From: Alphaproteobacteria bacterium
GTDB taxonomy: Bacteria; Pseudomonadota; Alphaproteobacteria; UBA828
DNA: 42,759 nucleotides
Direction of reading: 5' to 3'
Assembly (NCBI GenBank): GCA_022826345.1
Contig: JAJDVB010000208.1
Location: forward strand, 1-42,759
The position numbers were made by a program, and so were the translations under genes. This document shows, piece by piece, positions 4,663-25,295 of this stretch (the first letter of the stretch is position 1; each line of letters starts with the position of its first letter). Under the pieces are notes generated by a model, which was not told the DNA's origin, did not search any database, and worked only from the letters and a program-made list of their open reading frames with translations.

Positions 4663-4664
4663 GG

Positions 4665-4850
4665 GCCCGTCACGCAGCGTGGGAAGCCGGTGACGCCCGA
4701 CCTTGGGAGAGGCGCGGGCCAGTCCGGCGCTGCCCCCGCAACTGTAAGCGGCGAGACGGACCCCGTGCGCATCGCGCGGGCCACTGATCCGCGAGGATCG
4801 GGAAGGCCGGGGCCCGTCGACGACCCCGAGCCAGGAGACCGGCTGCGCGG
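4665..4850 (+). promoter_or_regulatory. Cobalamin (B12) riboswitch
   Basis: The conserved blocks of the adenosylcobalamin aptamer occur in order: GGGAAGCCGGTG (4681-4692), GCTGCC then CCCCCGCAACTGTAAGCGG (within 4729-4751), CCACTGATC (4781-4789), GGGAAGGCC (4800-4808), and the B12 box GAGCCAGGAGACCGGC (4828-4843). The strong ribosome site of cobP (GGAGGGAGG) begins about 25 bases after the B12 box. There is no T-run after the aptamer. Control is therefore more likely by access to the ribosome site than by termination, and high cobalamin would turn the operon off. The expression platform itself could not be folded with confidence by eye. Confidence 0.95.
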
Positions 4851-4880
4851 CAGGGCTGCAACGTCCTCGGAGGGAGGATC

Positions 4881-5420
4881 ATGGCGGGTCTGGACCAGGC
4901 GCCTCCCCCGGCGCGCATCACCCTCGTTCTCGGCGGCGCCCGCTCGGGCAAGAGCGCCCACGCGGAGGCGCTGCTCGACGACCACGCCGGCCCCAGGCTC
5001 TACATCGCCACCGCCGAGCCGCGCGATGCCGAGATGGAAGCGCGCATCGCCGCCCACCGCGCCCGGCGCGGGCCCCAATGGCGCACGGTCGAGGCGCCGC
5101 TCGCGCTCACCGAGACGCTGCAGGCCGAGAGCCGCCCCGGCGCCGCGCTGCTGGTCGACTGCCTCACCCTCTGGCTCAGTAACATCATGGAGGCCGGCCG
5201 GGACATCGCCGCCGAAACCCGGCGCCTCACGGCCTGCCTCGGCCGGCTGGAAGGGCGCACGGTGCTGGTCTCCAACGAAGTGGGCCTTGGCATCGTGCCG
5301 GAGAACGCCGCGGCACGCGCCTTCCGCGACCATGCCGGGCGGCTCAACCAGGCCGTGGCCCAGGCCGCCGAGCGGGTGGTCTTCGTCGCCGCCGGCCTGC
5401 CGCTGACGCTCAAGCCGTGA
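4881..5420 (+). CDS. cobP: Bifunctional adenosylcobinamide kinase / adenosylcobinamide-phosphate guanylyltransferase
   Basis: Phosphorylates adenosylcobinamide and then attaches GMP, activating the corrinoid for addition of the lower nucleotide. The 179 residues match the CobP/CobU length. The P-loop GGARSGKS is at residues 18-25, followed by YIATAEPRDAEMEARIAAH, whose region holds the His that is guanylylated in the family. The C-terminal block NEVGLGIVPENAAARAFRD and GRLNQ is typical of CobU. The start at 4881 follows GGAGGGAGG, and this is the first gene behind the B12 riboswitch. The next gene starts 7 bases after its stop codon. Confidence 0.95.
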   Translation: MAGLDQAPPPARITLVLGGARSGKSAHAEALLDDHAGPRLYIATAEPRDAEMEARIAAHRARRGPQWRTVEAPLALTETLQAESRPGAALLVDCLTLWLSNIMEAGRDIAAETRRLTACLGRLEGRTVLVSNEVGLGIVPENAAARAFRDHAGRLNQAVAQAAERVVFVAAGLPLTLKP

Positions 5421-5427
5421 GGGCCTT

Positions 5428-6345
5428 GTGAGCGCACCCCGCATCGCTTCCCTGGTGCCGAGCGCGACCGAGATCGTCGCGGCGCTCGGCCAGGCGGAGA
5501 ACATCGTCGCCCGCAGCCACGAATGCGACTGGACGCCCCAGGTCGCGAAGGCGCCGGCCTGCACGCGCGCCAGGATCGACGCGAGCAAGCCGAGCGGTGC
5601 GATCCACGAGGAGGTGGGCAAGCTGCTCACGGCGGCGCTCAGCCTCTACGACCTCGATACCGAAGTCCTGCGGGCCGCGCGGCCCAGCCACATCGTCACG
5701 CAAGACCAGTGCGACGTGTGCGCGGTGGGGCTCTCCGAGGTCGAGGCTGCGGCGGCGGAGTTCCTGGAAGCACCGGTGCAGATCGTCTCGCTCGCGCCGA
5801 TGCGCCTCGGCGACGTGTGGGACGATATCGGCCGGGTCGGCGACGCCCTCGGCGTCGACGCCCAACCGGTCCGCGAGGGCCTGCGCGAGCGTGTCACTGC
5901 GATTGCCGAGCGCGCCAAGGCGCTTCCGCCCAGGCGCGTGCTGACCGTCGAGTGGTCCGACCCGCCCATGACCGCCGGCAACTGGGTGCCGGAGCTGGTC
6001 GCGCTCGCGGGCGGGATCGACACTCTGGGCGCTGACGGCGGCCACTCGCCGCGCATTACCGTCGAGGCGGTGGCTGCCGCCGATCCCGACGCGATCGTGC
6101 TCATGCCCTGCGGCTACGGCCTGCCGCGCACGGTCGACGACGGCCGCGCGCTGCTCGCCGACCCGGCCTGGGGCGGCTTGCGCGCGGCGCGGGCCGGCGC
6201 GGTCTACGCCACCGACGGCAACGCCTTCTTCAACCGGCCGGGGCCGAGGCTCGTGGAGTCCCTGGAAATCCTGGCCGAGATCATCCACCCGGCGCACTTC
6301 GGCTTCGGCCACGAGGGCACCGGGTGGAGCCGTCTGACCATGTGA
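5428..6345 (+). CDS. BtuF-like cobalamin-binding protein without signal peptide
   Basis: A 305-residue protein of the periplasmic-binding fold used for vitamin B12 and iron-siderophore transport (BtuF class): ASLVPSATEIVAALG near the start, SLAPMRLGDVWDDIGRVGDALG in the middle, and AADPDAIVLMPCGYG late. The GTG at 5428 leads straight into the domain. No hydrophobic signal or lipobox precedes it, so the protein should stay in the cytoplasm. Family-specific cysteines are visible: HECDWTP (Cys33) and QCDVC (Cys95, Cys98). Lying between cobP and cobW in a riboswitch-controlled operon with no permease or ATPase gene nearby, it is more likely to bind or hand over a corrinoid or cobalt than to act in import. 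The exact role is not established. Confidence 0.8.
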   Translation: MSAPRIASLVPSATEIVAALGQAENIVARSHECDWTPQVAKAPACTRARIDASKPSGAIHEEVGKLLTAALSLYDLDTEVLRAARPSHIVTQDQCDVCAVGLSEVEAAAAEFLEAPVQIVSLAPMRLGDVWDDIGRVGDALGVDAQPVREGLRERVTAIAERAKALPPRRVLTVEWSDPPMTAGNWVPELVALAGGIDTLGADGGHSPRITVEAVAAADPDAIVLMPCGYGLPRTVDDGRALLADPAWGGLRAARAGAVYATDGNAFFNRPGPRLVESLEILAEIIHPAHFGFGHEGTGWSRLTM

Positions 6346-6351
6346 GGTGCG

Positions 6352-7386
6352 ATGCAGAATCAGAAAATTCCCGCCACCGTGATCACCGGCTTCCTCGGCG
6401 CCGGCAAGACCAGCCTGATTCGCCACGCGCTGGGCGCCGCGAACGGGCGGCGCATCGCGCTCATCATCAACGAGTTCGGCGATCTCGGCATCGACCAGGA
6501 CGTGCTGCAAGGCTGCGGCGACGAAGCCTGCGACGAGGTCGATGTCGTCGAGCTCGCCAACGGCTGCATCTGCTGCACGGTGGCCGACGACTTCGCGCCG
6601 GCGATCGAGGCGTTGCTCGCCCGCGAGCCCGCGCCCGAGCACATCCTGATCGAGACCTCGGGCCTCGCGCTGCCCAAGCCGCTGGTCGCCGCCTTCAACT
6701 GGCCCGAGATCCGCACCCGGCTCACCGTGGACGGCGTGGTCGCCGTGGTGGACGGCCCCGCGCTGGCGGAGGGCCGCTTCGCCGACGACGAAGATGCGCT
6801 CCAGGCCCAGCGGGAGGCGGACGACGCTCTCGACCACGAGTCGCCGCTCGCCGAGGTGTTCGAGGACCAGATCGGCTGCGCCGACATGGTGATCCTCAAC
6901 AAGACCGACCTGCTGGCCGCGGGCGGCGCCGAGGCCGGCAAGGCACGCATGACGCCGCACCTGCGGCCCGGCGCGCACGTGGTCGAGGCGGCCCATGGGC
7001 GCGTGCCGCCGGACCTGCTGCTCGGCCTCGATGCCGCGGCGGAAGACGATCTCGCAAGCCGGCGCTCGCACCACGACGGCCTCGACGAGGCGCATGACCA
7101 CGACGAGTTCGAGAGCTTCGTCATGGCGCCCGGCACGATCGACGACCCGGCCGCCTTCGCCGCCCGGCTCAGCATCGCAGCGGACGCTTACGGCCTGCTG
7201 CGCGCCAAGGGCTTCCTCTATGTCGCGGGCAAGCGCCGGCGGCTCGTGGTGCAGGCGGTCGGCACGCGCGTTGATCGCCATTTCGACCGCGACTGGCGCC
7301 CCGGCGAAGCGCGCGAAGGCCGCCTCGTCGTGATCGGCCTCGCCCCGCTCGACCGCGCGGCCGTCGAAGCGGCGATCAGAGGCTAG
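6352..7386 (+). CDS. cobW: CobW, cobalt-handling GTPase
   Basis: A G3E-family GTPase thought to deliver cobalt to the cobaltochelatase. The N-terminal P-loop GFLGAGKT is at residues 13-20, and the metal site GCICC (Cys72, Cys74, Cys75) matches the family CxCC signature. NKTD gives guanine specificity, and a CobW C-terminal domain follows. Between the two domains lies a short His/Asp-rich linker (SHHDGLDEAHDHDEF), a plausible extra metal ligand. It lies 6 bases after the BtuF-like gene and 10 bases before cobN, in the usual cobW-cobN order. Confidence 0.95.
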   Translation: MQNQKIPATVITGFLGAGKTSLIRHALGAANGRRIALIINEFGDLGIDQDVLQGCGDEACDEVDVVELANGCICCTVADDFAPAIEALLAREPAPEHILIETSGLALPKPLVAAFNWPEIRTRLTVDGVVAVVDGPALAEGRFADDEDALQAQREADDALDHESPLAEVFEDQIGCADMVILNKTDLLAAGGAEAGKARMTPHLRPGAHVVEAAHGRVPPDLLLGLDAAAEDDLASRRSHHDGLDEAHDHDEFESFVMAPGTIDDPAAFAARLSIAADAYGLLRAKGFLYVAGKRRRLVVQAVGTRVDRHFDRDWRPGEAREGRLVVIGLAPLDRAAVEAAIRG

Positions 7387-7396
7387 GAGCCCGGCC

Positions 7397-10300: not shown

Positions 10301-11137
10301 GTGCGCGCCGTCGCGGCCCTGGACGAGGGGCCGGAGGACAACCCATTGGCCGCCAAGGTCGCCGCCGATGCCGCGACGCTCGCCGACGAGGGCGCGCCGG
10401 AAGCACGGGCCCGGCGCCTCGCCTCCTACCGGGTCTTCGGCTCCAAGCCCGGCGCCTACGGCGCAGGCCTGCAGGCGCTGATCGACGAGCGAGGCTGGGC
10501 GGACGCGAGCGACTTCGCCCAGGCCTATGTCGCCTGGGGCGGCTGGGCCTACGGCGCAGGCGAGGGCGGTGCGGCCGAGCACAGGCTCTTCGAGCAGAGG
10601 CTCGGCGCGGTCGAGGCGGTGGTGCAGAACCAGGACAACCGCGAGCACGACCTGCTCGACAGCGACGACTACTACCAGTTCGAGGGCGGCTTGGCAGCGG
10701 CGGTGACGGTTCACGCCGGCCGCGCGCCCGCGCTCTACCACAACGACCACTCCGTGCCCGACAACCCGCGCATCCGCACGCTTGTCGACGAGCTCGGCCG
10801 CGTGGTCCGCGCGCGCGTGACCAACTCCAAGTGGATCCGGGGCGTCATGCGCCACGGCTACAAGGGCGCCTTCGAGATCGCGGCAACGGTGGACTACCTC
10901 TTCGCCTTCGCCGCCACCACCGGCGCCGTCAAGGACCACCACTTCGACGCGGTGTTCGATGCCTACGTGGCCGACGAAGCGGTGCGGGACTTCATGGCCG
11001 ACGCCAACCCGGCGGCGCTGCGCGAGCTTGCCGAGCGGCTGCTGGAGGCGCAGGAGCGGAGCCTCTGGCGGCCCCGCGCGAACCACGCCCACGCACTGCT
11101 CGCGGCGCTCCGCGACGGCAGGCAGGAGGCACTCTGA
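7397..11137 (+). CDS. cobN: Cobaltochelatase large subunit CobN
   Basis: The large, magnesium-chelatase-H-like subunit that binds hydrogenobyrinic acid a,c-diamide and inserts cobalt with the AAA+ partners CobS and CobT in the aerobic pathway. The 1246-residue length fits. The N-terminus [10 protein letters not shown]...[22 protein letters not shown] matches the usual CobN start, which fixes the TTG at 7397; AGGAG lies 7 bases before it. Other blocks include [17 protein letters not shown] and a conserved C-terminal [16 protein letters not shown] region. The stop codon overlaps the cobO start (TGATG). CobS and CobT genes are not in the window, and an early-acting chelatase (CbiX) is, so its use here is uncertain. 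Confidence 0.95.
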
Positions 11138-11760
11138 TGCCACGCGAGAACGAGACCGAGGCCGAACTCGACCAACGCCATGCCGAGAAAATGCGCAAGC
11201 GCAAGGCCGCGCGGGAGCGCATGCTGGCCACCAAGACCATCGAGAAGGGCCTGCTCATCGTTCACACCGGCAAGGGCAAGGGCAAGTCGACCGCCGCCTT
11301 CGGCCTCGCGGCCCGCGCCATCGGGAACGGCATGAAGGTGGGCATCGTGCAGTTCGTGAAGGGCAAGTGGGCGACCGGCGAGCGCGCGGTGCTGGAGCGC
11401 TTTCCCGACCTCGTCACCGTCCGCGTGATGGGCGAGGGCTTCACCTGGGACACGCAGGACCGCCAGCGCGACCTCGCCGCCGCGCACAAGGCGTGGGAGG
11501 CGGCCAAGGAGTTCCTCGCCGATCCCTCGTACCGCCTGGTGGTGCTGGACGAGCTCAACATCGTGCTGCGCTACGATTATCTCGACCTCGACGACGTGCT
11601 CGCCGGGCTCGCCGCGCGCGATCCGGGCCAGCACGTCGTGGTCACCGGGCGCAACGCCAAGCCCGCGCTGATCGAGATGGCCGACCTCGTGACCGAGATG
11701 ACCGAGATCAAGCATCCTTTCCGAGCCGGCGTGAAGGCGCAGGTGGGCATCGAATTCTGA
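11137..11760 (+). CDS. cobO: Cob(I)yrinic acid a,c-diamide adenosyltransferase
   Basis: Transfers the adenosyl group of ATP to Co(I) corrinoids (CobO/BtuR/CobA type, not PduO). The 207 residues fit the family. The charged N-terminal helix is followed by the P-loop [14 protein letters not shown], then [15 protein letters not shown] and the Walker B-like [17 protein letters not shown]. The ATG at 11137 shares a base with the cobN stop, and its own stop shares a base with the cobQ start, so translation of cobN-cobO-cobQ is probably coupled. Confidence 0.95.
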
Positions 11761-13250
11761 TGGCGAGAGCCGCACACAGGCCGCCGGCCCTGATGTTTCA
11801 GGGCACGGGCTCCAACGTCGGCAAGTCCCTGCTGGTGGCAGGGCTTTGCCGGGCCTATGCCGCGCGCGGGCTCCGGGTGCGCCCGTTCAAGCCGCAGAAC
11901 ATGTCCAACAACGCCGCCATCGCAGGCGACGGGCGCGAGATCGGCCGCGCCCAGGCGTTGCAGGCCCGCGCCGCCGGCATCGAGCCTTGCGTCGACATGA
12001 ACCCGGTGCTGCTCAAGCCCGAGAGCGAGCACGGCGCCCAGGTGGTGGTGCAGGGGAGCGTAAGCGGCACCGCCGATGCCCGCGCCTACCACGCGCTCAA
12101 GGCCAAGCTGATGCCGCGCGTGCTGGAGAGTTTTGGGCGATTGGGCCAGGGCGCCGACCTGATCCTGGTGGAGGGCGCGGGCAGCCCGTCCGAGGTCAAC
12201 CTGCGGGAGAACGACATCGCCAACATGGGCTTCGCCCTGGCGGCGGGCGTGCCCGTGGCGCTGGTGGGGGATGTGGACCGTGGCGGCGTGATCGCGAGCC
12301 TGGTCGGCACGGCGGCATTGCTGCCGGCGGCGGAGCGCGCGCTTACCAGGGGCTTCCTCATCAACAAGTTCCGGGGCGATGCCACGCTGTTCGACGGCGC
12401 CAACACGATCATCGAGCGGGAGACCGGTTGGGCCGCCCTGGGTCTCGTGCCCTGGTTCGAGGCAGCCCGGCTGCTGCCGGCCGAGGACAGTGTCGGACTG
12501 GACTCCACACCATCGCTATCGGCGACGACCGGCCGCGCCATCAAGATCGCCGTGCCCCATCTGCCGCGCATCTCCAACACCGACGATCTCGACCCCCTCC
12601 GCGCCGAGCCCGATACCGTGCTCGACCTCGTGCCGCCGGGCCGCGCGCTGCCGGGGGATGCCGACCTCGTGCTGCTGCCGGGCAGCAAGGCGACCCGCAG
12701 CGACCTCGCGGCACTGCACGCCGAGGGCTGGGCGCTCGACCTCCAGGCGCATGTCAGGCGCGGCGGCTGGGTGGTGGGCCTCTGCGGCGGCTACCAGATG
12801 CTGGGCCGGCGCATCTCCGATCCCGCCGGCATCGAGGGCCCGCCCGGCGAGACTCCGGGTCTCGGCCTGCTCGATGTCGAGACGGTGATGAGCGCGGGCA
12901 AGCGCCTGGTCCGCGCGTCGGGCCACGCGAGCGAGGGCGGCGAAGCGGTCGCGGGCTACGAGATGCACATGGGGGAGACCACCGGGCCCGACACCGTGCG
13001 CCCGCTGGTCCGCCTCGAAAGCGGCCCGGACGGCGCGCGGGCGGCAAACGGCAGGGTCATGGGCTGCTACCTGCATGGCCTCTTCGCCGCCGACGGTTTT
13101 CGGCGCGCCTTCCTTGAGGGGCTACGGCGGCGGGAGACCGCCGGCATCGCCTACGACGCCCTGGTGGAGGAGACCCTTGACGCCCTCGCCGCCCATCTCG
13201 AGGCCCATCTCGACCTAGAGCGCCTGCTGGAGGTGGCCCGTGCGCGCTGA
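11760..13250 (+). CDS. cobQ: Cobyric acid synthase CobQ
   Basis: Performs four glutamine-dependent amidations (b, d, e, g) of adenosylcobyrinic acid a,c-diamide. The 496 residues show the dethiobiotin-synthetase-like N-domain with GTGSNVGKS (residues 15-23), [23 protein letters not shown] and DVDRGGV. A type I glutamine amidotransferase domain follows with [11 protein letters not shown] (nucleophile Cys342) and the late YLHGLF histidine. The ATG at 11760 overlaps the cobO stop. Its stop codon lies 7 bases from that of the opposing cobD gene, so it ends the riboswitch-led operon. Confidence 0.95.
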
Positions 13251-13257
13251 GCCCCGG

Positions 13258-14256: not shown

Positions 14257-14312
14257 CGGTCCACAATGAAAAGCCCACGCATCGCGGTCAATGGACGGAA
14301 CGGAGGCGGGCG

Positions 14313-15912: not shown

Positions 15913-17117
15913 GCGGCTGGCTCACCGTCATCGGCCTCGGCGAAGACGGCCCGGACGCGCTCGCGCCCGCCGCCCGCGCGCTGATCGACCGGGCGGAGGT
16001 GCTGATTGGCGGCGAACGGCATCTCGCCATGATCCCGGACGGCACGGCGCGCCGCCTCACCTGGCGCCGGCCGCTGACTGAGACCATGGACGACATCCGC
16101 GCCGTGAGCGGTCAGCGGGTCGTCGTTCTCGCCACCGGCGATCCCTACTGCTTCGGCATCGGCACCACGCTCCGCCGCGCCTTCCCCGGCGAGGAGATCG
16201 TGACGATCCCGGCGCCGTCCGCCTTCAGCCTCGCCCGCGCCCGGCTCGGTTGGAGCGCCGACGAGACCGTGGGCGTGACCCTGCACGGCCGCCCGCTGGA
16301 GAGTGTCCGGGCCCACCTCGCCCCCGGCCAGCGGCTGCTGGTGCTCTCCCACGACGGGGCGACGCCGGCCGCCGTCGCAGCGCAGCTCACCGCCGTCGGC
16401 TACGGCGCCAGCACGCTCACCGTCTTCGCGCACATGGGCGGGCCCGACGAGACTAGTATCACCCAGCGCGCCGACCGCTGGCGCGAGGCGCAGGTGCCGG
16501 ACCTCAACACCGTCGCCATCGAATGCCGGGCCGAAGGCAAGCTGAAGCGCTTTCGCGGCGCGCCCGGCCTGCCCGACCGCGCGTTCGAGAACGACGGTCA
16601 GCTCACCAAGCGCGAAATCCGGGTGCAGACCTTGAGCGCGCTGGACCCCCGGCCCGGCGCACTGCTCTGGGACGTGGGCGCGGGCGCCGGCTCGGTGGCG
16701 ATCGAATGGCTCCTGAGCGAACGCACCGCCAATGCCATCGCCGTCGAGCGCGACGCGGAGCGCTGCGCCCGCATCGCCCGCAACGCCACGGCCCTCGGTG
16801 TGCCGCGCCTCACCGTGCAAGAGGGCACGGCACCGGAGGCGCTAGAGCCCCTGCCAGTGCCCGACGCGGTCTTCATCGGCGGCGGGCTCACGGTCGACGG
16901 CCTGATCGAGACCTGCTGGGCGAGGCTCACGCCCGGCGGCACCTTGGTGGCCAACGCCGTCACCCTCGCCGGCGAGGCGGTCCTCGCGGACTGGTGTGCG
17001 CGCCACGATGGCTTCATGACCCGTCTCGCGATCTCGCGCGCGAGGCCCGTGGGGCGCCACCTCGCTTGGCGGCCGTCGATGCCGGTGACGCAGCTCACGC
17101 TGGTCAAACCGCCATGA
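15909..17117 (+). CDS. cobL: Precorrin-6Y C5,15-methyltransferase (decarboxylating), CbiE-CbiT fusion
   Basis: Methylates C-5 and C-15 and removes the C-12 acetate carboxyl. The 402 residues comprise an N-terminal CbiE tetrapyrrole-methylase domain (about 1-205; VIGLGEDGPDALAPAAR, LATGDPYCFGIG, PAPSAFSLARARLGW) and a C-terminal CbiT Rossmann methyltransferase domain (about 215-400; LLWDVGAGAGSVAIEWLL, AVERDAERC, DAVFIGGG). This is the fused form used by CobL; in many anaerobic-type clusters CbiE and CbiT are separate. The start overlaps the cobH stop and the stop overlaps the cobI start (both ATGA), so translational coupling is likely. Confidence 0.95.
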   Translation: MSGWLTVIGLGEDGPDALAPAARALIDRAEVLIGGERHLAMIPDGTARRLTWRRPLTETMDDIRAVSGQRVVVLATGDPYCFGIGTTLRRAFPGEEIVTIPAPSAFSLARARLGWSADETVGVTLHGRPLESVRAHLAPGQRLLVLSHDGATPAAVAAQLTAVGYGASTLTVFAHMGGPDETSITQRADRWREAQVPDLNTVAIECRAEGKLKRFRGAPGLPDRAFENDGQLTKREIRVQTLSALDPRPGALLWDVGAGAGSVAIEWLLSERTANAIAVERDAERCARIARNATALGVPRLTVQEGTAPEALEPLPVPDAVFIGGGLTVDGLIETCWARLTPGGTLVANAVTLAGEAVLADWCARHDGFMTRLAISRARPVGRHLAWRPSMPVTQLTLVKPP

Positions 17118-17815
17118 GCGGACTGCTCAGCGGCATCGGCGTCGGCCCCGGCGATCCTGACCTGATCACGCTCAAGGCGCTAAAAGTGCTCCGGCGGGCC
17201 GCGGTGGTCGCCTACCCCGCGCCGCCCGAGGGCGAGAGCCTCGCCCGCAGCATCGCGGCGCCGCATCTCCCCGGCGGGCAGGAGGAGATCGCCATCCGCA
17301 TGCCTCTAGAGCCCAGCCGGTTCCCGGCGGCGGAGATCTATGACGAGGCGGCAGCGACCCTCGGCGCGCGGCTCGATGCGGGGCGCGACGTCGCGGTGCT
17401 CTGCGAGGGCGACCCCTTCGTCTACGGCTCCTTCCTCTACCTATTCGAGCGGCTGGCCCAGCACCACAGGGTGGAGGTGATCCCCGGCGTCTCCTCGCCG
17501 ATGGCCTGCGCCGCCGCGCTCGGCCTGCCGTTGGCGGCGCGCAACGACGTGCTGGCGGTGATCCCGGCGCCCCTCGATGACCAGCGGCTCACCGCCCAGC
17601 TCGCCAACTGCGACGCGGCGGCGATCGTCAAGGTGGGCCGCCACCTGGAGAAGGTGCGCCTCGTGCTAGATGACCTCGGCCTGCTTCTGCGCGCGCACTA
17701 CGTCGAGCGCGCCTCCATGGCCACGCAGCGGATCATGCCGCTGGCCGAGGTCGAGCCGCCCGCGCCCTACTTCTCCATGGTCATCGTCCACAAGCGGGGC
17801 GCGGCATGGCGCTGA
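17114..17815 (+). CDS. cobI: Precorrin-2 / cobalt-factor II C20-methyltransferase
   Basis: A SAM-dependent tetrapyrrole methylase of 233 residues (CobI/CbiL). The N-terminal GIGVGPGDPDLITLKALKVL is the family signature, followed by VLCEGDPFVYGSFLYL and VIPGVSSPMACAAALGLPL. Whether it acts on metal-free precorrin-2 or on cobalt-factor II cannot be read from motifs. The presence of CbiX, CbiG and CbiD in the same locus favours the cobalt form. The ATG at 17114 overlaps the cobL stop, and its 3' end overlaps the next gene by 10 bases. Confidence 0.93.
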   Translation: MSGLLSGIGVGPGDPDLITLKALKVLRRAAVVAYPAPPEGESLARSIAAPHLPGGQEEIAIRMPLEPSRFPAAEIYDEAAATLGARLDAGRDVAVLCEGDPFVYGSFLYLFERLAQHHRVEVIPGVSSPMACAAALGLPLAARNDVLAVIPAPLDDQRLTAQLANCDAAAIVKVGRHLEKVRLVLDDLGLLLRAHYVERASMATQRIMPLAEVEPPAPYFSMVIVHKRGAAWR

Positions 17816-19662
17816 GCCAGCCCGCCGTGGTGATCCTCGATGCGCGGCAGGTCGCTCTGGCACGGCGCATCGCGACCGCTCTGCCGGGCGCAGCAGTCCA
17901 TGGTCCCGCGTCCCTCCGGGACGACGCCGATGTCGCCTACGAGCGGCTCGGACCCCATCTGGTCTCCCTGTTCCGGGCCGGCACGCCCATCGTCGGCATC
18001 TGCGCCGCGGGCATCCTCATCCGCCTGCTCAGTCCCCATCTCGCGGACAAGGGCGCCGAGCCGCCGGCGCTCGCGGTCTCGGAGGACGGGCAGAGCGTCG
18101 TGCCGCTGCTGGGCGGCCATCACGGCGCGAACCAGCTCGCGCGCACCATTGCATCGGCCCTCGACTGCCATGCCGCGATCACCACGGCCGGCGACACGGC
18201 CTTGGGGTTCGCCCTCGACGCGCCGCCTGCGGGTTGGCGCCTCGGCGAGGGCGCGCGGGTGAAGGCGGTCACCGCCGCGCTGCTCGCGGGTGAGCCTGTC
18301 CGTCTCGTGACCGAGGCTGCCTCGGCCGACTGGCTCACCGCAGGGGATGCGCCATTCGCGGACCGGGGTCGCCTCACCCTCCGCATCACCGACCGGAGCC
18401 CATTGCCCGGCGACGACGCGGCCGATGTCACGCTGCATCCTGCCGTCTTGGCGCTCGGTCTCGGCTGCGAGCGGGGCTGCGCGCCAACCGAATTGATCGA
18501 CCTTGCCCAAAGCACACTGGCCGCCGGCGGGCTCGCGCCCGAGGCGGTCGCCTGCGTCGCCTCCCTAGACCTGAAGGCGGACGAGCCTGCGGTGAGCGCC
18601 GTCGCGGACTGGCTGAGCGTGTCGCTCCGCCTCTTCGACGCCGCGGCGCTGGAGCGCGAGACTCCGAGGCTCACGGCGCCGTCTGACGTGGTGTTCCGGG
18701 CGGTCGGCTGCCACGGCGTAGCGGAGGCGGCCGCGCTCGCCTGTGCCGGCGCGGACGGCGCGCTGGTCCAGCCCAAGACCAAGAGCGCGCGCGGTACCTG
18801 TGCCATCGCCCGGTCGTCCGCGATCATCGAGCCCGAGCGCTGCGGGCGGGGACGGGGGCGCGTCGCCTTGGTCGGCATCGGCCCTGGCGCGCGGGCGTGG
18901 CGCACACCGGGGGCCGACGCCGCCCTCGCGGACGCTACCGACCTGGTGGGCTACGGCCGCTACCTCGACCTGCTCGGGCCGCTGCCGCCGGGTTGCGCGC
19001 GTCACGCCTACCCCATCGGCGCCGAGGCAGAGCGCTGCCGCGCCGCCCTCGCGCTCGCAGCCGAAGGCCGCCGCGTCGCCCTGGTTTCCTCGGGCGATGC
19101 CGGGGTCTACGGCATGGCCTCGCTGCTCTTCGAGCTGCTGGACGGAGTGGACGCCGAGCCCCGATGGCGCGGCATCGAGCTTGCGGTGGAGCCCGGCATC
19201 AGCGCACTCCAGGCCGCTGCGGCGCGCGCTGGCGCACCCATCGGCCACGATTTCTGCGCCATCTCCCTCTCCGACCTGCTGACGCCCTGGTCCGCAATAG
19301 CGCGGCGACTCCGGGCCGCCGCCGAGGCCGATTTCGTGGTGGCGCTCTACAACCCGGCGTCGGGGCGGCGGCGCATCCAACTAACGCAAGCACGTGCGAT
19401 CCTGGCCGCTCACCGCCCGCCTAACTGCCCCGTGGTCCTCGCCCGCAATCTTGGGCGGAGGAACGAGAGCGTCTCGATCACCACCCTGGACGACCTCGAT
19501 ACCGATGCAGTCGACATGCTCACGGTCATCGTCGTCGGCAGCAGCCAGACGCGGCGCGTCGAGCGCGGCGGCCGAGCGTGGCTCTACACGCCGCGCGGCT
19601 ACGGGGCGGGCGACGCGGCGGCGGACGACGAAGCGGCGCCCCGCGCAGCAAAGCGCGCGTGA
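17806..19662 (+). CDS. cobJ: CbiG-CobJ fusion: cobalt-precorrin-5A hydrolase and (cobalt-)precorrin-3 C17-methyltransferase
   Basis: One 618-residue chain with two enzymes. Residues 1-345 are CbiG: an N-terminal domain with GICAAGILIRLLSPHL (64-79) and LLGGHHGANQLA (101-112), a linker, and the C-terminal domain with LALGLGCERGCAPTEL (215-230), KADEPA and QPKTKSARGTCAIA. Residues about 352-600 are CobJ/CbiH: VALVGIGPGARAWRTPGA, VALVSSGDAGVYGMA, VEPGISALQAAAARAGAPIGHDFCAISLSD and VALYNPASGRR. CbiG opens the ring-A lactone and releases the C-2 fragment, a step used only in the early-cobalt route. CobJ methylates C-17 and contracts the ring. Tethering the steps may channel an unstable intermediate. 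The tail after 600 is Ala/Asp-rich. Confidence 0.93.
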   Translation: MALSQPAVVILDARQVALARRIATALPGAAVHGPASLRDDADVAYERLGPHLVSLFRAGTPIVGICAAGILIRLLSPHLADKGAEPPALAVSEDGQSVVPLLGGHHGANQLARTIASALDCHAAITTAGDTALGFALDAPPAGWRLGEGARVKAVTAALLAGEPVRLVTEAASADWLTAGDAPFADRGRLTLRITDRSPLPGDDAADVTLHPAVLALGLGCERGCAPTELIDLAQSTLAAGGLAPEAVACVASLDLKADEPAVSAVADWLSVSLRLFDAAALERETPRLTAPSDVVFRAVGCHGVAEAAALACAGADGALVQPKTKSARGTCAIARSSAIIEPERCGRGRGRVALVGIGPGARAWRTPGADAALADATDLVGYGRYLDLLGPLPPGCARHAYPIGAEAERCRAALALAAEGRRVALVSSGDAGVYGMASLLFELLDGVDAEPRWRGIELAVEPGISALQAAAARAGAPIGHDFCAISLSDLLTPWSAIARRLRAAAEADFVVALYNPASGRRRIQLTQARAILAAHRPPNCPVVLARNLGRRNESVSITTLDDLDTDAVDMLTVIVVGSSQTRRVERGGRAWLYTPRGYGAGDAAADDEAAPRAAKRA

Positions 19663-20423
19663 CGGTTCACTTCATCGGCGCAGGCCCCGGTGCGCCGGAC
19701 CTGATCACGGTACGCGGGCTTACCCTGCTGCGCCGCTGCCAGGTGGTGCTCTACGCGGGCTCACTGGTGCCGCCCATGATTCTGGAGGAGGCACAGGCGG
19801 ATGCGCGCATCATCGACACCGCGCCCCTCGATCTCGACGCGATCATCGCCGAAATGCAGCAGGCTGTGGCAGATGGCCACGAGGTCGCGCGGCTCCATTC
19901 CGGCGATCCCTCGCTTTACGGCGCCATCGCCGAGCAGATGCGCCGCCTCGACCGCCTCGGCATTCCCTACGACGTGACCCCCGGCGTGCCGGCCTACGCG
20001 GCGGCGGCGGCGGCGCTCAAGCAGGAGCTCACGCTCCCAGGCATCGCCCAGACCGTGATCCTGACGCGGACCGCCGTGCGCGCGTCCTCCATGCCCGACG
20101 ACGAGGGGCTGGAGCGGCTCGCCGCAGGCGGCGGGACGCTGGCCATCCACCTCTCCATCAACAATCTCGCGAACGTGACGCGGGCGCTGATCCCCCATCG
20201 CGGGGCGGACTGCCCCACCGTCGTCGCCTACCGGGTGAGCTGGCCCGACGAGCGCATCGTGCGCGGCACCCTTGGCACCATCAGGGACAAGGTGAAGGCC
20301 CTCGGCCTCACGCGGACGGCGCTGATTCTCGTCGGCCGGGCCCTGGATGCGCCCGACTTCGACGAGAGCCAGCTTTACGACCCCGCCCATCACCACGTGC
20401 TGCGCCCGCGGCGAAAGGCCTGA
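19659..20423 (+). CDS. cobM: Precorrin-4 / cobalt-precorrin-4 C11-methyltransferase
   Basis: A SAM-dependent methylase of 254 residues (CobM/CbiF). HFIGAGPGAPDLITVRGLTLL opens the fold, followed by VLYAGSLVPP, RLHSGDPSLYGAI, DVTPGVPAYAAAAAAL and LTLPGIAQTVILTR, the usual CbiF blocks. The GTG at 19659 overlaps the previous stop (GTGA). An open frame reaches back to 19578 but only repeats the Arg/Gly shadow of the CobJ tail. Its TGA (20421-20423) directly abuts the opposing TAG of cobK (20424-20426), so no base separates the two convergent genes. Confidence 0.94.
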   Translation: MTVHFIGAGPGAPDLITVRGLTLLRRCQVVLYAGSLVPPMILEEAQADARIIDTAPLDLDAIIAEMQQAVADGHEVARLHSGDPSLYGAIAEQMRRLDRLGIPYDVTPGVPAYAAAAAALKQELTLPGIAQTVILTRTAVRASSMPDDEGLERLAAGGGTLAIHLSINNLANVTRALIPHRGADCPTVVAYRVSWPDERIVRGTLGTIRDKVKALGLTRTALILVGRALDAPDFDESQLYDPAHHHVLRPRRKA

Positions 20424-21194
20424 CTACGTCTCCGCGAGGCGCTCTTCGATCCAGGTCAATGCCTCCTCGACCGAGGACGCACAAGGGCCGGGCGGCGGCG
20501 GCGGGCGGCGCACCATCACCACGGGCAGGCCGAGCGCCCGCGCCGCTGCGAGCTTGGCCGCTGTCGCCTCCCCGCCGCTCGCGCGGGTGACCAGGCAGTC
20601 GATACGGTGATCGGCGAGGAGTGCCCGCTCGTCTTCCTCCGCGAACGGCCCGCGCGCGCAGATCAGCTTGTGGCGGGCAAGGGGGATCGGCTCCGCCGGC
20701 TCGTCCACCAGCCGCACCAGGAACCAGAGCTCCGCGCGGGCGGCGAAGGGCACGAGCGAGCGGACGCCCACCGTGAGGAACACGCGCTCCGCCTCCGCCG
20801 GCATCGCTCCAACAGCCTCCTCCACCGTAGCGACGCCGATCCAACGATCGCCCGGTACGGGTTGCCAATGGGGCCGCACCAGCACCAGGCGTTCGGTCCC
20901 GGCCCGCGCTGCCGCCTCGCGCGCCTGCACCGAGATGCGCGTGGCGAAGGGGTGGGTGGCGTCGATCAGCAGGCCGATCCGCTCCTCTCGCAGATACGCG
21001 GCCAGGCCGTCGGTCCCGCCGAAGCCGCCGATGCGGACATCGCCTGTCGGCAGGATTGGCGCGCGGGTGCGGCCGGCGAGCGCCGAAATCACCGTCAACG
21101 AAGGGCCGAAGCGCGCCTCAGCCGCCTCGGCCAGCGCGCGGCCCTCGGCGGTGCCGCCCAGGATCAGCAGCCGTTCAGGGCCCGGCGCGGCCAA
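20424..21194 (-). CDS. cobK: Precorrin-6A / cobalt-precorrin-6A reductase
   Basis: NADPH-dependent reduction of the corrin macrocycle (CobK/CbiJ). About 256 residues. Family blocks are LLILGGTAEGRALAEAAEAR at the start, GGFGGTDGLAAYLRE, LIDATHPFATRIS, FLTVGVRSL and DCLVTRASGGEATAAKLAAARALGLPVVMV. The open frame runs back to 21329, but family similarity starts at LLILGG. No ATG or GTG lies close by, so the TTG at 21194 is chosen; it lies 17 bases inside the 3' end of cbiD, consistent with coupling. The start is the weakest part of this call. Confidence 0.92.
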   Translation of the reverse strand: MAAPGPERLLILGGTAEGRALAEAAEARFGPSLTVISALAGRTRAPILPTGDVRIGGFGGTDGLAAYLREERIGLLIDATHPFATRISVQAREAAARAGTERLVLVRPHWQPVPGDRWIGVATVEEAVGAMPAEAERVFLTVGVRSLVPFAARAELWFLVRLVDEPAEPIPLARHKLICARGPFAEEDERALLADHRIDCLVTRASGGEATAAKLAAARALGLPVVMVRRPPPPPGPCASSVEEALTWIEERLAET

Positions 21195-22275
21195 CGATGC
21201 AGCCTGTGCGGTCGACGATGAGCACGTCCACGTGGGGCATGGTCCGGGCGCCGGTGAGCGCGGCCTCGGCCACGGCGCGGGCCTGGGCGGCGATGGCATC
21301 GCCAAGTGGCAAGCCGGCCTCGCTCGCAATCCCCAGGATCGCGCCGGCCGAGCCGGCGGCCTCGGCTCGCGCCAGGGTCTCCTCCGACGCGCCGAGGGTC
21401 GCCAGACGGCGGACGAGGCCCTTGCAGTCCACCGTGCTGCGCTGCGAATGCAGGTCCATGTGGCCGTCCGCGAGCTTGCTGATCTTGCCGAAGCCGCCGG
21501 CGACGGTGAGCCGCGGCACCGGCTTGCGCCGGATCAGCTTCAGCGTAGCGCCGACGAAATCGCCCATGTCGATCAGCGCGGCTTCGTCGAGGTCGTAGAG
21601 CGCCTGCGCCGCCTGCTCCGAGACCCGGCCCGTCGCGGCCGCGAGATGGGGAGTGTCGGCAGCGGCGGCCACATCGATGCCTTGCCGAATAGAAGCGATC
21701 CACGCCGCGCAGGAGTAGGGTTTGACGATGCCCGACGTGCCGAGCACCGAGAGCCCGCCGACGATGCCGAGGCGGCCGTTCATCGTCTGCCGCGCAAGCC
21801 GGCGCCCGTCCGGAATGGCGATGGCGACGGAGACATCCGCCGGCCCGCCCAGCGCTGGCGCGAGATCGTCCAGCATCGCCGCGATCATCTTGCGGGGCGC
21901 CGGGTTGATTGCGGGCTCGCCCACCGCGAGGTTGAGGCCGGGCTTGGTCACGATGCCGACGCCTTCGCCTGCGCGGAACACGATACCGGCACCCGCCGGT
22001 GCGGGCCTCACCCAGGATTCCACCAGTGCGCCGTGGGTCACGTCGGGGTCGTCGCCCGCATCCTTGCGCACGCCCGCGCGCCCGTGGCGCTGGCCACGCT
22101 CAGCCACCACCAGGGGGAAGGCGGGCTCCTGGCCGCCCGGCAACGTCACCGAGACCGGGTCGGGGAAGCGCCCGGTGACCAGCGCCGTGTATGCCGCCCG
22201 CGTCGCTGCGGCAGCGCAGGCGCCGGTAGTCCAGCCCCGCCGAAGCGCGCCGCTGCTCGACGATCCATCAGTCAT
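21175..22275 (-). CDS. cbiD: Cobalt-precorrin-5B C1-methyltransferase
   Basis: Methylates C-1 in the early-cobalt corrin route; the aerobic route uses the unrelated CobF instead. The 366 residues show LRRGWTTGACAAAATRAAY at the N-terminus, GVGIVTKPGLNLAVGEPAINPAPRKMI, GRLGIVGGLSVLGTSGIVKPYSC and VAGGFGKISKLADGHMDLHS, all CbiD hallmarks. The ATG at 22275 is only 47 bases from the divergent cobA start and has no obvious ribosome site. Its presence, with CbiX and CbiG, is the clearest sign that this locus encodes the anaerobic-type chemistry. Confidence 0.95.
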   Translation of the reverse strand: MTDGSSSSGALRRGWTTGACAAAATRAAYTALVTGRFPDPVSVTLPGGQEPAFPLVVAERGQRHGRAGVRKDAGDDPDVTHGALVESWVRPAPAGAGIVFRAGEGVGIVTKPGLNLAVGEPAINPAPRKMIAAMLDDLAPALGGPADVSVAIAIPDGRRLARQTMNGRLGIVGGLSVLGTSGIVKPYSCAAWIASIRQGIDVAAAADTPHLAAATGRVSEQAAQALYDLDEAALIDMGDFVGATLKLIRRKPVPRLTVAGGFGKISKLADGHMDLHSQRSTVDCKGLVRRLATLGASEETLARAEAAGSAGAILGIASEAGLPLGDAIAAQARAVAEAALTGARTMPHVDVLIVDRTGCIVGRAGP

Positions 22276-22322: not shown

Positions 22323-23177
22323 ATGGACGATGCTTCCCCCCGCCCGCGCAGACCCGCGCTGCCCACCATCGAGCCGGGTTCCGTCTGGCTCGTCGGCGCA
22401 GGCCCCGGCGATCCGGGCCTGCTCACGCTCCACGCGGCACACGCGCTTGCCCACGCCGACTGCGTCGTCTACGACGCCCTGGTCTCGCCCGAGATTCTGG
22501 CGCTGGCTCGGCCTGGGGCGGCGCTCGAATACGCCGGCAAGCGGGGCGGCAAGCCGTCGGCAAGCCAGCCCGACATCTGTGGCCGGCTGATACGCCTCGC
22601 CCGGCAGGGTCAGCGCGTACTCCGCCTCAAGGGCGGCGATCCCTTCGTCTTCGGCCGGGGCGGGGAGGAGGCGCTGGCGCTCGCCGCAGCCCACATTTCC
22701 TTTCGCCTCGTACCGGGAGTCACCGCCGCCGCCGGCGGCCTGGCTGCGGCCGGCATTCCCATGACCCATCGCACCACGAATTCGGCGGTGACACTGCTCA
22801 CCGGCCACGACGCGGCCGGCGGCGTGCCGGACGCGCTGGACTGGCAGGCTATCGCGCGAGGCGCGCCGGTGCTGATCTTCTACATGGCGCTCCGCCAGCT
22901 CGACGCGATTGCCGCTCGGCTCACCCAGAACGGCCTCTCGGGCGAGACGCCGGTGGCGCTCATCAGCCACGCCACCACCGGGGCGGAGCGCGTGGTCGAG
23001 GCCCCGCTGGCCGAGGCGGCGGCGGCGGCCGAGCGCGCAGGCATCGAGGCGCCCTGCCTGGTGGTCGTGGGCGACGTGGTGCGGCTCCGCCGGGCGCTGG
23101 ACCCGGCGGCGACGGTCGAGGCGCGGGCCGAGGCTGCCGAGGCGCTCGCACGGCACTGGCGCCGCGCCGCCGGTTGA
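22323..23177 (+). CDS. cobA: Uroporphyrinogen-III C-methyltransferase (SUMT)
   Basis: Two SAM-dependent methylations at C-2 and C-7 of uroporphyrinogen III give precorrin-2, the branch point to cobalamin and siroheme. The 284 residues include VWLVGAGPGDPGLLTLHAAHAL, VVYDALVSPEIL, RLKGGDPFVFGRGGEEA, VPGVTAAAGGLAAAGIPMTHR and LLTGHDAAGG, the standard SUMT blocks. No CysG-type dehydrogenase/ferrochelatase domain is attached, so a separate precorrin-2 dehydrogenase would be needed if CbiX works on sirohydrochlorin. A 20-residue Pro-rich lead precedes the domain. It is divergent from cbiD. Confidence 0.95.
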   Translation: MDDASPRPRRPALPTIEPGSVWLVGAGPGDPGLLTLHAAHALAHADCVVYDALVSPEILALARPGAALEYAGKRGGKPSASQPDICGRLIRLARQGQRVLRLKGGDPFVFGRGGEEALALAAAHISFRLVPGVTAAAGGLAAAGIPMTHRTTNSAVTLLTGHDAAGGVPDALDWQAIARGAPVLIFYMALRQLDAIAARLTQNGLSGETPVALISHATTGAERVVEAPLAEAAAAAERAGIEAPCLVVVGDVVRLRRALDPAATVEARAEAAEALARHWRRAAG

Positions 23178-23270
23178 GGAGGAATAGGCAAGACCGAATC
23201 CTTTTGCCGCACAGGGCATGGCAGGGCTAGTCTGGCGCCCTGAAGACTCCCCGAACACGCAAACCAGCTC

Positions 23271-23990
23271 ATGTGGAAGGAACTCGGCAAATTCGGCATG
23301 GGTCCGCCGTCCGGCGGCGGCCAGCAGCCCGGCGGAGGCGATCCGCGGAACCGGGGCGGTGGCAGGCAGTCGCCCCTGGGCCGCAACCCGCTGCTCTGGA
23401 TCCTGATAATCGGCGCGATCCTGATCTACACGCAGATGGATGGCTCGGGCTCGATTTTCGGCCCCATGGATCAGAGCCACGTTTCCCGCATGGCGGTCTC
23501 GCCGGACCAGGTCGTCGGCGATTTCGAGCTGATCGACCACACCGGCACGCCGCGCACCGACGAGGATTTCCACGGCGCGTATTCGCTCTACTATTTCGGC
23601 TTCACCTGGTGCCCAGATGTCTGCCCGTCTGCCATGCTGGTCATGGCGCAGGTGGTCGAGGATCTGGCGGCCCAGAACATGACGGTGCAGCCGATTTTCG
23701 TCACCGTCGATCCGCAGCGCGATACGGTGGAGAAGCTCGCCGCCTATGTCGCGCAACTTCCCGGCCTGATCGGGCTCACCGGCTCGGACGCGCAGGTGGC
23801 GCAGGCGCTCCAGTCCTTCGGTATCACCCGGCGTTCGCAGGCGGACGGGCCGGACGACACAAGCTATCAGGTCGACCACACGTCGCTGTTCTACCTGATG
23901 GGGCCGGACGGCGCGTTCCTCCAGCACTACCTGCCGACCCAGGGGCCCACCCAGATCGCTCTCGAAATCGAGCGCGAGCTTACGGGCTGA
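23271..23990 (+). CDS. SCO1/SenC family copper-binding, thioredoxin-like membrane protein
   Basis: A 239-residue protein with one N-terminal membrane segment (about 40-54) and a periplasmic thioredoxin-like domain. Copper ligands are visible: CPDVC (Cys114, Cys118) and His203 in VDHTSLFYL, together with the family block FVTVDPQRDT. SCO proteins help build the CuA site of cytochrome c oxidase. The cytoplasmic lead (10-37) is unusual, rich in Gly, Pro, Gln and Arg. It sits between cobA and cobB, 6 bases before cobB, and so is probably co-transcribed with it. Whether that reflects metal homeostasis or chance is unclear. No oxidase genes are in the window. Confidence 0.88.
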   Translation: MWKELGKFGMGPPSGGGQQPGGGDPRNRGGGRQSPLGRNPLLWILIIGAILIYTQMDGSGSIFGPMDQSHVSRMAVSPDQVVGDFELIDHTGTPRTDEDFHGAYSLYYFGFTWCPDVCPSAMLVMAQVVEDLAAQNMTVQPIFVTVDPQRDTVEKLAAYVAQLPGLIGLTGSDAQVAQALQSFGITRRSQADGPDDTSYQVDHTSLFYLMGPDGAFLQHYLPTQGPTQIALEIERELTG

Positions 23991-23996
23991 GCGCCC

Positions 23997-25295
23997 GTGG
24001 CCTCGGGCGTCATCCTGGCCGCGCCGGCCTCGGGCAGCGGCAAAACCGTGCTGTGCGCGGGCCTTTTGGCCCATTTTCGCGAGCGCGGCCGTACCACCCG
24101 CGCCTTCAAAGTGGGCCCCGACTATATCGACCCCGGATATCACCGGCTCGCCACCGGCCACGACTGCGTCAATCTCGATCCCTGGGGCATGCGGCCCGAG
24201 ACGCTGGCGCGACGGGTGGCAGCGCTCTGCGCGGGCGCCGACCTGGTGATCGGCGAGGGCGCGATGGGCCTCTTCGACGGCGCTCGCGACGGCACCAGCT
24301 CCACCGCCGACCTCTCAGCCCGGCTGGGCCTGCCCGTGGTGCTGGTGGTAGACGCCCGCGGCCAGGGCGCCTCGGTGGCCGCGCTTGCGGAAGGCTTCGT
24401 CAATCACCGTGAAGATGTGACGGTCGCTGGCGTCATCCTCAACCGCGTCGCAGGTCCGACGCACGAGCGGCTGCTGCGCGATGCTCTGGACTCCCGCTCG
24501 ATCGCGGTGCTCGGCGCCGTGCCCCGAGACGAGGCGCTGAAACTGACCTCGCGCCATCTCGGCCTCGTGCAGGCCTGCGAGAGCGAGGGATCGTTGGTGG
24601 ACAGGGCAGCGTCGGTCGTCGGGCGGTCGGTCGATACCGACGCGCTTGCGGCCCTCGCTCATCCTCTTCAGGCCACGCCGACGCAGCCGGGCACGGCGAT
24701 CCCGCCCTTGGGCCAACGGATTGCGGTGGCGCGCGATGAGGCGTTCGGCTTCTGCTACGAGGCGCTGATGGAGGACTGGCGCGCTGCCGGCGCGGCGGTC
24801 GTGCCCTTCTCGCCGCTCGCGAACGAAGCGCCTGATGCAGATGCCGACGCGGTCTACCTGCCGGGCGGCTACCCCGAGCTGCACGCAGGGCGCATCGCCG
24901 GTTCGGCGCGCTTTCTGGACGGGCTGCGGGCTGCTGCGCCGCGCGGCGCCGCTATCTTCGGCGAATGCGGGGGCTACATGGTGTTGGGCCGCGGTCTCAC
25001 CGACGCCGACGGCCGGCGCCACGCCATGGCCAGGCTGCTGCCGCTCGAGACCAGCTTTCGCGAGCGCCGCCTCTCTCTCGGCTACCGCCACGCCCGGCTC
25101 GCCGCCGACGGCCCGCTCGGCAAGGCGGGGACCGGCTTTCGCGGCCACGAATTCCACTATTGCCGCGTGGTCTCTGAAGAAGCGGAGCAGCCGTTGTTTG
25201 CGACCCAGGATGCCACGGGTAAGCAACTCGGCCACGCAGGCATGACCCGAGGCACGGTATCAGGCTCCTTCATCCACCTGATCGATCGCACGTGA
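23997..25295 (+). CDS. cobB: Cobyrinic acid a,c-diamide synthase
   Basis: Glutamine-dependent amidation of the a and c carboxylates (CobB/CbiA). 432 residues. The N-terminal ATP-dependent domain has APASGSGKTVLCAGLL and FKVGPDYIDPGYH. The C-terminal amidotransferase domain has GGYPELHAG, FGECGGYMVLGRG (nucleophile Cys324), GYRHA and GSFIHLID (His427). The start is GTG at 23997, 6 bases after the SCO gene. CobB acts on hydrogenobyrinic acid and CbiA on cobyrinic acid; given CbiX, CbiG and CbiD here, the cobalt-containing substrate is more likely. It converges on the penicillin-binding protein gene with 13 bases between stops. Confidence 0.95.
   Translation: MASGVILAAPASGSGKTVLCAGLLAHFRERGRTTRAFKVGPDYIDPGYHRLATGHDCVNLDPWGMRPETLARRVAALCAGADLVIGEGAMGLFDGARDGTSSTADLSARLGLPVVLVVDARGQGASVAALAEGFVNHREDVTVAGVILNRVAGPTHERLLRDALDSRSIAVLGAVPRDEALKLTSRHLGLVQACESEGSLVDRAASVVGRSVDTDALAALAHPLQATPTQPGTAIPPLGQRIAVARDEAFGFCYEALMEDWRAAGAAVVPFSPLANEAPDADADAVYLPGGYPELHAGRIAGSARFLDGLRAAAPRGAAIFGECGGYMVLGRGLTDADGRRHAMARLLPLETSFRERRLSLGYRHARLAADGPLGKAGTGFRGHEFHYCRVVSEEAEQPLFATQDATGKQLGHAGMTRGTVSGSFIHLIDRT

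Follow-up and report, generated by a model that had tools for sequence, protein, structure and literature searches.

CbiX and CobN in one alphaproteobacterial cobalamin locus: a common hybrid of early- and late-cobalt genes

Pathways to vitamin B12 are usually classed as early- or late-cobalt by marker genes. Genomes in which the annotations of the two chelatases are mixed have already been published (PMC6461909, as far as the available part of the article goes), and the accessible text of a study of haloarchaea describes cobN-chlID in cobalt-early organisms, for which its authors guessed, as we do below, a role in salvage (PMC8305020). For Sphingomonas haloaromaticamans, the excerpt of the source at hand gives a locus with the order riboswitch-btuB-hoxN-cobW-cobN-cobO-btuF and no corrin-ring genes (PMC6970198). 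Here we describe a stretch of 42,759 nucleotides from an alphaproteobacterium of the UBA828 lineage (assembly GCA_022826345.1, contig JAJDVB010000208.1, positions 1 to 42,759 of the forward strand; the whole stretch analysed is called the window), where the early-type chelatase gene cbiX and the gene for the large subunit of the late cobaltochelatase, cobN, stand in the same cobalamin cluster. An earlier sequence-only reading had named CbiX, CbiG, CbiD, CobA, CobI, CobJ, CobM, CobK, CobL, CobH, CobB, CobN and CobW in this DNA, and the cluster is confirmed as a real, single locus (Table 1), all of these but CbiG scoring above at least one curated cut-off. The combination is not peculiar to the window, since CobN in CbiX-route cells is a common hybrid among Alphaproteobacteria. 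The explanation towards which we lean, if only just, is that cobalt is inserted early by a CbiX of the large type and that a functional CobN, working with CobS and CobT, is kept to serve corrinoids that lack metal, whether salvaged or leaked.

CbiX and CobG replace each other in the class

Models for CobN, CbiD, CobG, CbiX and CobS were searched in a sample of 290 alphaproteobacterial genomes. CobN was found above its cut-off in 111 of them (112 counting G116, in which it is split over two contigs), CbiD in 93, CobG in 34 before curation, CbiX in 90 (78 at E <=1e-20) and CobS in 196. After the loci of the 114 genomes with CobN or CbiD had been checked, 73 had CbiX only, 34 CobG only, 2 both and 5 neither, i.e. 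CbiX and CobG are nearly mutually exclusive (Fisher p ~3e-21 for the 114 genomes, kinship being ignored). CobN is present in 68 of the 69 genomes with CbiX and CbiD, and in 91 of the 93 with CbiD. With 22 CobG-only genomes also possessing it, CbiD is no early-cobalt marker in Alphaproteobacteria; the claim of the sequence-only reading that CbiG and CbiD are specific to the early-cobalt route is contradicted by these genomes and by Ochrobactrum, which has CobG together with CbiG-CobJ and CbiD. In the sampled Alphaproteobacteria CbiD, CobN and CobS all fail as route markers, and it is CbiX versus CobG, plus the clade of CobI and CobJ, that separates the two routes. The form of CobN is also informative: the long form, which is the window's type, occurs in 84 genomes (some of these proteins being cut short by the end of a contig), and a short form of about 1100 amino acids in 28, among which CobG was found in 27 and a strong CbiX in none (two have weak CbiX-family matches).

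The counts depend on curation as follows. Ten genomes of the sample have CobG matches away from CobN and CbiD: G073, G239, G170, G298 and G248 were counted as CobG, the match lying beside cobH and cobI; G087, G125 and G099 were not, these being proteins of about 590-610 amino acids whose fetched surroundings contain no cob gene; and G226 and G252 fall outside the table, having neither CobN nor CbiD. G060, G064 and G130 were included for a gene of weak CobG similarity (76-111 bits) next to cobH, and sub-cut-off CobG matches adjoining CobN were counted in G172, G163, G242, G301 and for the second match of G254. CbiX was counted at E <=1e-20, which excludes the weaker matches in the CobN genomes G063 and G292. 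For G099 and G297 the fetched contigs were short or cut.

Genome-wide questions were put to relatives of the window, gathered by a genome scan with the window's CobN of which the best 80 loci were kept; 48 genomes, reached via 48 of these loci, were searched. The closest among the best 80 loci are L001 and L002 (92% and 88% CobN identity), both from alphaproteobacterial metagenome-assembled genomes and both with the gene order of the window from cobU to cobK. Above its cut-off, CobS was found in 46 of the 48 genomes, CobF in 3 and CobG in 4, with sub-cut-off CobG matches in a further 32; a CbiX-family match was found in 44, the N-domain of CbiG in 46 and CbiD in 44. One of the four CobG matches, in G029, turned out to be a 668-amino-acid protein of the NirA family, leaving a true CobG in 3 of 48, namely Ochrobactrum, Ensifer and Phyllobacterium, each with CobG beside cobH and cobI (L202, L203 and L204) and none with a CbiX match. 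The CobZ_N model was above its cut-off in 8 of the 48 genomes. Three of these loci were fetched: in L100 and L102 the match was classified by hidden Markov models as TcuA beside TcuB, and L101 was seen as a listing of open reading frames (ORFs); from L100 and L102 and from ORF lengths of 468-599 amino acids, all eight were taken as TcuA. CobZ itself we take to be a TcuA-TcuB-like fusion.

Two mixtures of another kind were seen. In Ochrobactrum (L202, positions 386000-405500 of contig 5 of G039) CobG stands with a CbiG-CobJ fusion and CbiD in a genome that gives no match for CbiX and none above cut-off for CobF, and C-1 methylation by CbiD seems, from this gene content, to work in a CobG route. 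The reverse mixture, CobF with CbiX and CbiG and no CbiD match, is found in G027 (L042); its record is labelled Mesoflavibacter, yet its CobN clusters with those of Alphaproteobacteria.

The sequence-only reading had reported CobG, CobZ, CobF, CobS and CobT as absent. This stands for the window, where none was above cut-off in the selected ORFs scanned (the window lists 140, part of which were scanned with Pfam only); it need not hold for the organism. In both closest relatives cobS adjoins cobT on another contig, and the missing pair is most likely an effect of the window's edges. CobT scores 682 and 676 bits there against a cut-off of 759, a shortfall probably due to ATG-started ORFs that miss the first 139 model positions. 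With the two genes present and adjacent in these relatives, CobN is not orphaned by their absence from the window, and the lack of CobS and CobT implied by the sequence-only reading is not supported. Could the organism then possess two complete routes, with CobG or CobZ and CobF elsewhere in the genome? We give this a very remote chance. What speaks for it are sub-cut-off matches to the CobZ model in the closest relatives (286 bits in G001 and 274 in G002, against a cut-off of 373); neither of the two has CobF or CobZ above cut-off or any CobG match, and in none of the 48 genomes, with their few CobF and true CobG, do CbiX and CobG occur together.

The anatomy of CbiX points to early insertion as well. 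The window's protein comprises two CbiX domains, of which the N-domain contains His11 and His77; it also has the motif MNCQLC (MXCXXC) at residue 255 and a His-rich tail. Among 37 aligned CbiX sequences, some of them partial, His11 is present in 35, His77 in 34 and MXCXXC in 35. We take MXCXXC to be the Fe-S motif of the large CbiX of Bacillus megaterium, CbiX-L. That enzyme, according to the part of the source that was available, has N-domain histidines, a C-terminal extension with a 4Fe-4S cluster and a His-rich region, and the ferrochelatase CbiX of Alphaproteobacteria has its histidines in the C-domain (PMC7689651). In the class sample, for which 75 loci from 74 of the 78 CbiX genomes were tested, the motif is present at 67; of the eight loci without it, three are in CobN-less genomes, one is a second copy, two are in genomes with both CobG and CbiX, and two belong to G093 and G232.

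One may object that this CbiX is a siroheme ferrochelatase, that cobalt enters late and that an unrecognised enzyme replaces CobG. There is a precedent in Paracoccus, whose CbiX was shown by experiment to be a siroheme ferrochelatase using C-domain histidines (PMC4063343, in the passages accessible), and the two solved sequences nearest to the window's CbiX are named sirohydrochlorin ferrochelatase. These two align with the same N-domain histidines, so that the choice of metal rests on context and not on the fold. The context is that the conserved pair lies in the N-domain and not, as in Paracoccus, in the C-domain; that cbiX, with its MXCXXC and His-rich tail, belongs to a cluster led by a B12 riboswitch; that CbiX is missing wherever CobG is present, bar two genomes; and that several genomes have second, weaker CbiX-family genes elsewhere. 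We consider the objection very unlikely to hold. The view of the sequence-only reading that the corrin is made by early insertion is supported by the large-type CbiX, the rarity of CobF and true CobG among the relatives and the mutual replacement of CbiX and CobG.

CobI and CobJ split by route, CobN does not

Trees of CobI, CobJ, CobH, CobM and CobL were built from those CbiX loci that have cbiX inside the stretch (20-33 rows including the window, of 80 loci) and from 15-21 of the 21 loci on the CobG side, with 200 bootstraps. Each route forms one clade in 100% of the 200 bootstraps for CobI (21 CobG and 30 CbiX rows), CobJ (21 and 22) and CobH (21 and 33). Judged by plain identity, a protein's nearest row belongs to its own route in 51/51 cases for CobI, 43/43 for CobJ, 51/51 for CobL, 52/54 for CobH and 34/35 for CobM. 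CobI and CobJ flank the CobG step in the pathway; their nearest solved structures gave nothing decisive.

The tree of CobN, made by a quick method from a separate set of 88 rows (seven labelled CobG, the labels of the queried CobG rows L064 and L065 being assumed), has no such split. At least five changes of the CobG label are forced by well-supported branches, and the CbiX label is only somewhat clustered (22 changes versus a shuffled mean of 27.4). Ensifer, of the CobG route, is here the sister of Rhizobium sp. RU33A, of the CbiX route, with a support of 98% in the Shimodaira-Hasegawa-like approximate likelihood ratio test (SH-aLRT). These two are 75% identical in CobN, 81% in CobW and 79% in CobO, versus 42% in CobI and 44% in CobJ, for which RU33A is closer to the distant window (57% and 58%).

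The safest reading of these comparisons is that CbiX or CobG would have been swapped together with CobI and CobJ, as a set adapted to a single metal state, CobU, CobW, CobN and CobO staying in place. No account of such an exchange around a constant CobN was found in the open literature on mixed routes, as far as its available parts go (most subscription papers lie outside this scope). Rhizobium sp. RU33A and Ensifer sp. Root278, with 75% identity in CobN and apparently different routes of ring contraction, form a natural experiment, in which what CobN does in a cell with early cobalt insertion is directly testable.

What CobN may do in a CbiX-route cell

The sequence-only reading had left three possibilities for CobN: a relic, a salvage chelatase or a new role. 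The first we hold to be scarcely credible, and CobN looks intact and functional from its sequence. Its match to the model spans residues 1-1238 of 1246, i.e. the full length, and the closest solved chain is 9uk9, itself a CobN. The ratio of nonsynonymous to synonymous substitution rates (dN/dS) of cobN is 0.159 versus L001 and 0.191 versus L002, eleven other genes being at 0.081-0.284, which contradicts decay. H550, H554, E558, E593, H1115 and H1153 do not vary among the 86 CobN counted out of 88 aligned (54 of the CbiX route, 7 CobG, 4 neither and 21 unassigned, two queried CobG rows being excluded), the positions other than E593 having been picked for their conservation; E593 aligns with a Glu changed to Asp in a deposited ChlH chain. 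Only K553, in one row, varies among the eleven positions inspected. Where seven CobN of the CobG route (six long-form rows and L118) are invariant, at 282 positions, those of the CbiX route keep 96% on average, and 31 of the 282 are kept in less than 90% of the CbiX-route rows. The neighbourhood is conserved too, with cobW <=1 kb upstream of cobN in 70 of the 76 loci with room and cobO <=1.5 kb downstream in 60 of 76. For a relic speaks the apparent redundancy with CbiX and nothing more; against it, besides selection and the conserved residues, are the place in the operon and the retention of CobN in 68 of 69 genomes.

Genomes with CobN and without ring markers favour a role on metal-free corrinoids over a relic. 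Sphingomonas montanisoli (G042) has riboswitch-cobW-cobN-cobO plus a CobS gene, with no match for CbiX, CbiG or CbiD and neither CobF nor CobG above cut-off (CobG 148 bits versus 235); the CobF model, which also matches related methyltransferases, gave only a trace match of 29 positions at E 3.5e-4, the best E in each of the other 47 genomes being 4.7e-5 or better. G075, G118 and G215 have CobN without CbiD, strong CbiX or above-cut-off CobG (the ring markers searched there) and a cobalamin riboswitch at each cobN locus, and in G075 genes for a FecCD-type permease and a TonB receptor lie downstream of cobO. On a plasmid of Terrarubrum flagellatum (L201), cobN-cobO stand beside a TonB-dependent receptor gene, no other cob genes being annotated in the 33.6-kb stretch (the PLSDB gene tables are incomplete). 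A Sphingobium plasmid carries CobN with CobG and CobF; the same bacterial family thus has full late-route members as well. Salvage is the best supported of the three possibilities, and it is put forward here as a proposal.

Another possibility, which we regard as rather unlikely, is that CobN handles or repairs corrinoids, for instance by restoring lost cobalt to damaged ones, by passing substrate to CobO or by removing metal in the manner of HmuS. It would fit the frequent cobO downstream of cobN and the presence of cobN-cobO where no ring genes are seen nearby (L201 and L125), and the heme de-chelatase HmuS is, in the part of the report available, a relative of class I chelatases (PMC12583661). 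HmuS is far more distant from the window's CobN, at 330 versus 1557 bits, and the cobalt supplier cobW upstream of cobN in most loci favours insertion.

It could also be argued that CobN, CobS and CobT form the obligatory final inserter of cobalt, the metal placed by CbiX being transient or meant for another branch, so that the corrin reaches CobN cobalt-free. The near-universal CobN of the genomes with CbiX and CbiD agrees with this, as does CobW, which is kept beside cobN and is not used by the early pathway (PMC10206600, in the sections that could be consulted). CbiD in the 22 CobG-only genomes points the same way, in that metal-free rings may be substrates of CbiG and CbiD. To our knowledge, there is no oxygen-independent ring contraction without cobalt, and this weighs against an obligatory late insertion. 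So do the replacement of CobG by CbiX throughout the class and the separate clades of CobI and CobJ in CbiX genomes, which are as expected for metal-loaded intermediates. We judge an obligatory CobNST improbable. To a variant, in which the metal placed by CbiX, cobalt or another, would merely drive oxygen-independent contraction and then be lost, CobN inserting the final cobalt late, we would allow a very slim chance; if true, it would be a third route to B12.

We therefore return to early insertion with CobN kept for metal-free corrinoids, under which the operon would consist of two modules, one for building the ring and a late one led by the riboswitch. CobA would yield precorrin-2. A precorrin-2 dehydrogenase is required ahead of the CbiX step, at which the large-type CbiX would load Co(II) into sirohydrochlorin. 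CobI, CbiG-CobJ, CobM, CbiD, CobK, CobL and CobH would then take the cobalt-loaded intermediates through oxygen-independent ring contraction to cobyrinic acid, to be amidated by CobB. The late module would comprise CobU, CobW, CobN, CobO and CobQ behind the B12 riboswitch: CobW may deliver Co(II), and CobN, which we infer to be active together with a cobS-cobT pair that this organism is expected to carry at another site, may load cobalt into metal-free corrinoids, either imported or leaked from the cell's own ring pathway under cobalt shortage, its product being adenosylated by CobO. In Alphaproteobacteria the ring-contraction core (CbiX or CobG with the matching CobI and CobJ) would be exchanged, CobN, CobW and CobO staying.

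Several observations weigh against this scheme. CobN is kept more consistently (68 of 69 genomes) than one would expect of an optional salvage function, which leaves room for a more central one. CobS occurs without CobN in at least 84 genomes (196 versus 112 of 290), which makes it weak evidence for late insertion; among 14 control genomes the CobS model matches Caulobacter vibrioides and the CobN model does not, and CobS probably serves for more than cobalt chelation in Alphaproteobacteria. Two genomes carry CobG with a CbiX-like gene devoid of the Fe-S motif, and in the CobN genomes G093 and G232 a CbiX without the motif is the only strong CbiX. As to the exchange, the split by route is weak for CobL (73% of bootstraps) and missing for CobM (2 changes), and the CobH of RU33A is closer to several CobG-route CobH (57-64%; Ensifer 57-59%) than to that of the window (47%), so that exchange of a whole cassette is not established.

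The locus beside known systems

The features of the cluster are collected in Table 1. The CbiG part of the fusion is matched over most of its length by several NCBIfam CbiG models, each below its cut-off. CobW is an equivalog match with CxCC (residue 72), Walker A (residue 13) and a His/Asp-rich stretch. The BtuF-like gene sits between cobU and cobW and has a counterpart (E 1e-8) only in L001 and L002 among the best 80 loci; by eye, its N-terminus has no obvious signal peptide.

Table 1. Features of the cobalamin cluster, in coordinates of the window
Feature	Position	Strand	Evidence
Cobalamin riboswitch (RF00174), heads operon	4630..4861	+	77.4 bits vs gathering 31.5
cobU/cobP, adenosylcobinamide kinase/guanylyltransferase	4881..5420	+	209 bits vs cut-off 161
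BtuF-like, periplasmic-binding fold	5428..6345	+	PF01497 55.9 bits vs cut-off 27.5
cobW, cobalt GTPase metallochaperone	6352..7386	+	501 bits vs cut-off 332
cobN, class I (late) cobaltochelatase large subunit, 1246 amino acids	7397..11137	+	1612 bits vs cut-off 822
cobO, corrinoid adenosyltransferase; start approximate	11131..11760	+	profile match
cobQ, cobyric acid synthase; start approximate	11787..13250	+	602 bits vs cut-off 273
cobD/cbiB; 5' end approximate	13258..14202	-	PF03186 320 bits
cbiX, large type, two CbiX domains	14313..15278	+	PF01903 160.6 bits
cobH, precorrin-8X methylmutase; start approximate	15274..15912	+	280 bits vs cut-off 276
cobL (CbiE+CbiT fusion)	15909..17117	+	both domains above cut-offs
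cobI, C20-methyltransferase; start approximate	17111..17815	+	TIGR01467 209 bits vs cut-off 163
cbiG-cobJ fusion, single ORF	17806..19662	+	CobJ: TIGR01466 286 bits vs cut-off 246
cobM, C11-methyltransferase; start approximate	19659..20423	+	310 bits vs cut-off 260
cobK, precorrin-6A reductase; 5' end approximate	20424..21182	-	313 bits vs cut-off 231
cbiD, C1-methyltransferase	21175..22275	-	PF01888 295 bits; TIGR00312 386 bits vs cut-off 200
cobA, uroporphyrinogen-III C-methyltransferase	22323..23177	+	TIGR01469 275 bits vs cut-off 185
SCO1/SenC copper-chaperone-type gene, between cobA and cobB	23271..23990	+	Pfam match
cobB, a,c-diamide synthase	23997..25295	+	474 bits vs cut-off 254

With the early-cobalt pathway of Salmonella and Bacillus megaterium the locus shares CbiX at the start, CbiG, CbiD and the anatomy of the large-type CbiX, and the two closest relatives of the window have no above-cut-off CobG or CobF. 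It differs from that pathway in its fused CbiG-CobJ and its CobL fusion, and in keeping CobN, CobW and CobO in a riboswitch-led cluster, with the cobS and cobT of the closest relatives elsewhere. CobN, CobW, CobO, CobQ and CobU have homologues in the late-cobalt pathway of 'Pseudomonas denitrificans', Ensifer and Rhodobacter (54-61% identity between window and Ensifer), whereas CobG and CobF are absent in nearly all relatives searched and the window-side CobI and CobJ fall in a separate clade. As for haloarchaeal cobN-chlID, the large subunit of a late chelatase is kept in an early-cobalt genome; the haloarchaeal partner is ChlID-like, in contrast to the CobS and CobT of the window's relatives. 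Finally, the riboswitch family, the cobW-cobN-cobO core and the BtuF gene are those of the Sphingomonas salvage locus (L074 and L125; PMC6970198, in its available part); the full ring set of the window sets it apart from S. haloaromaticamans, for which that part gives no corrin-ring genes.

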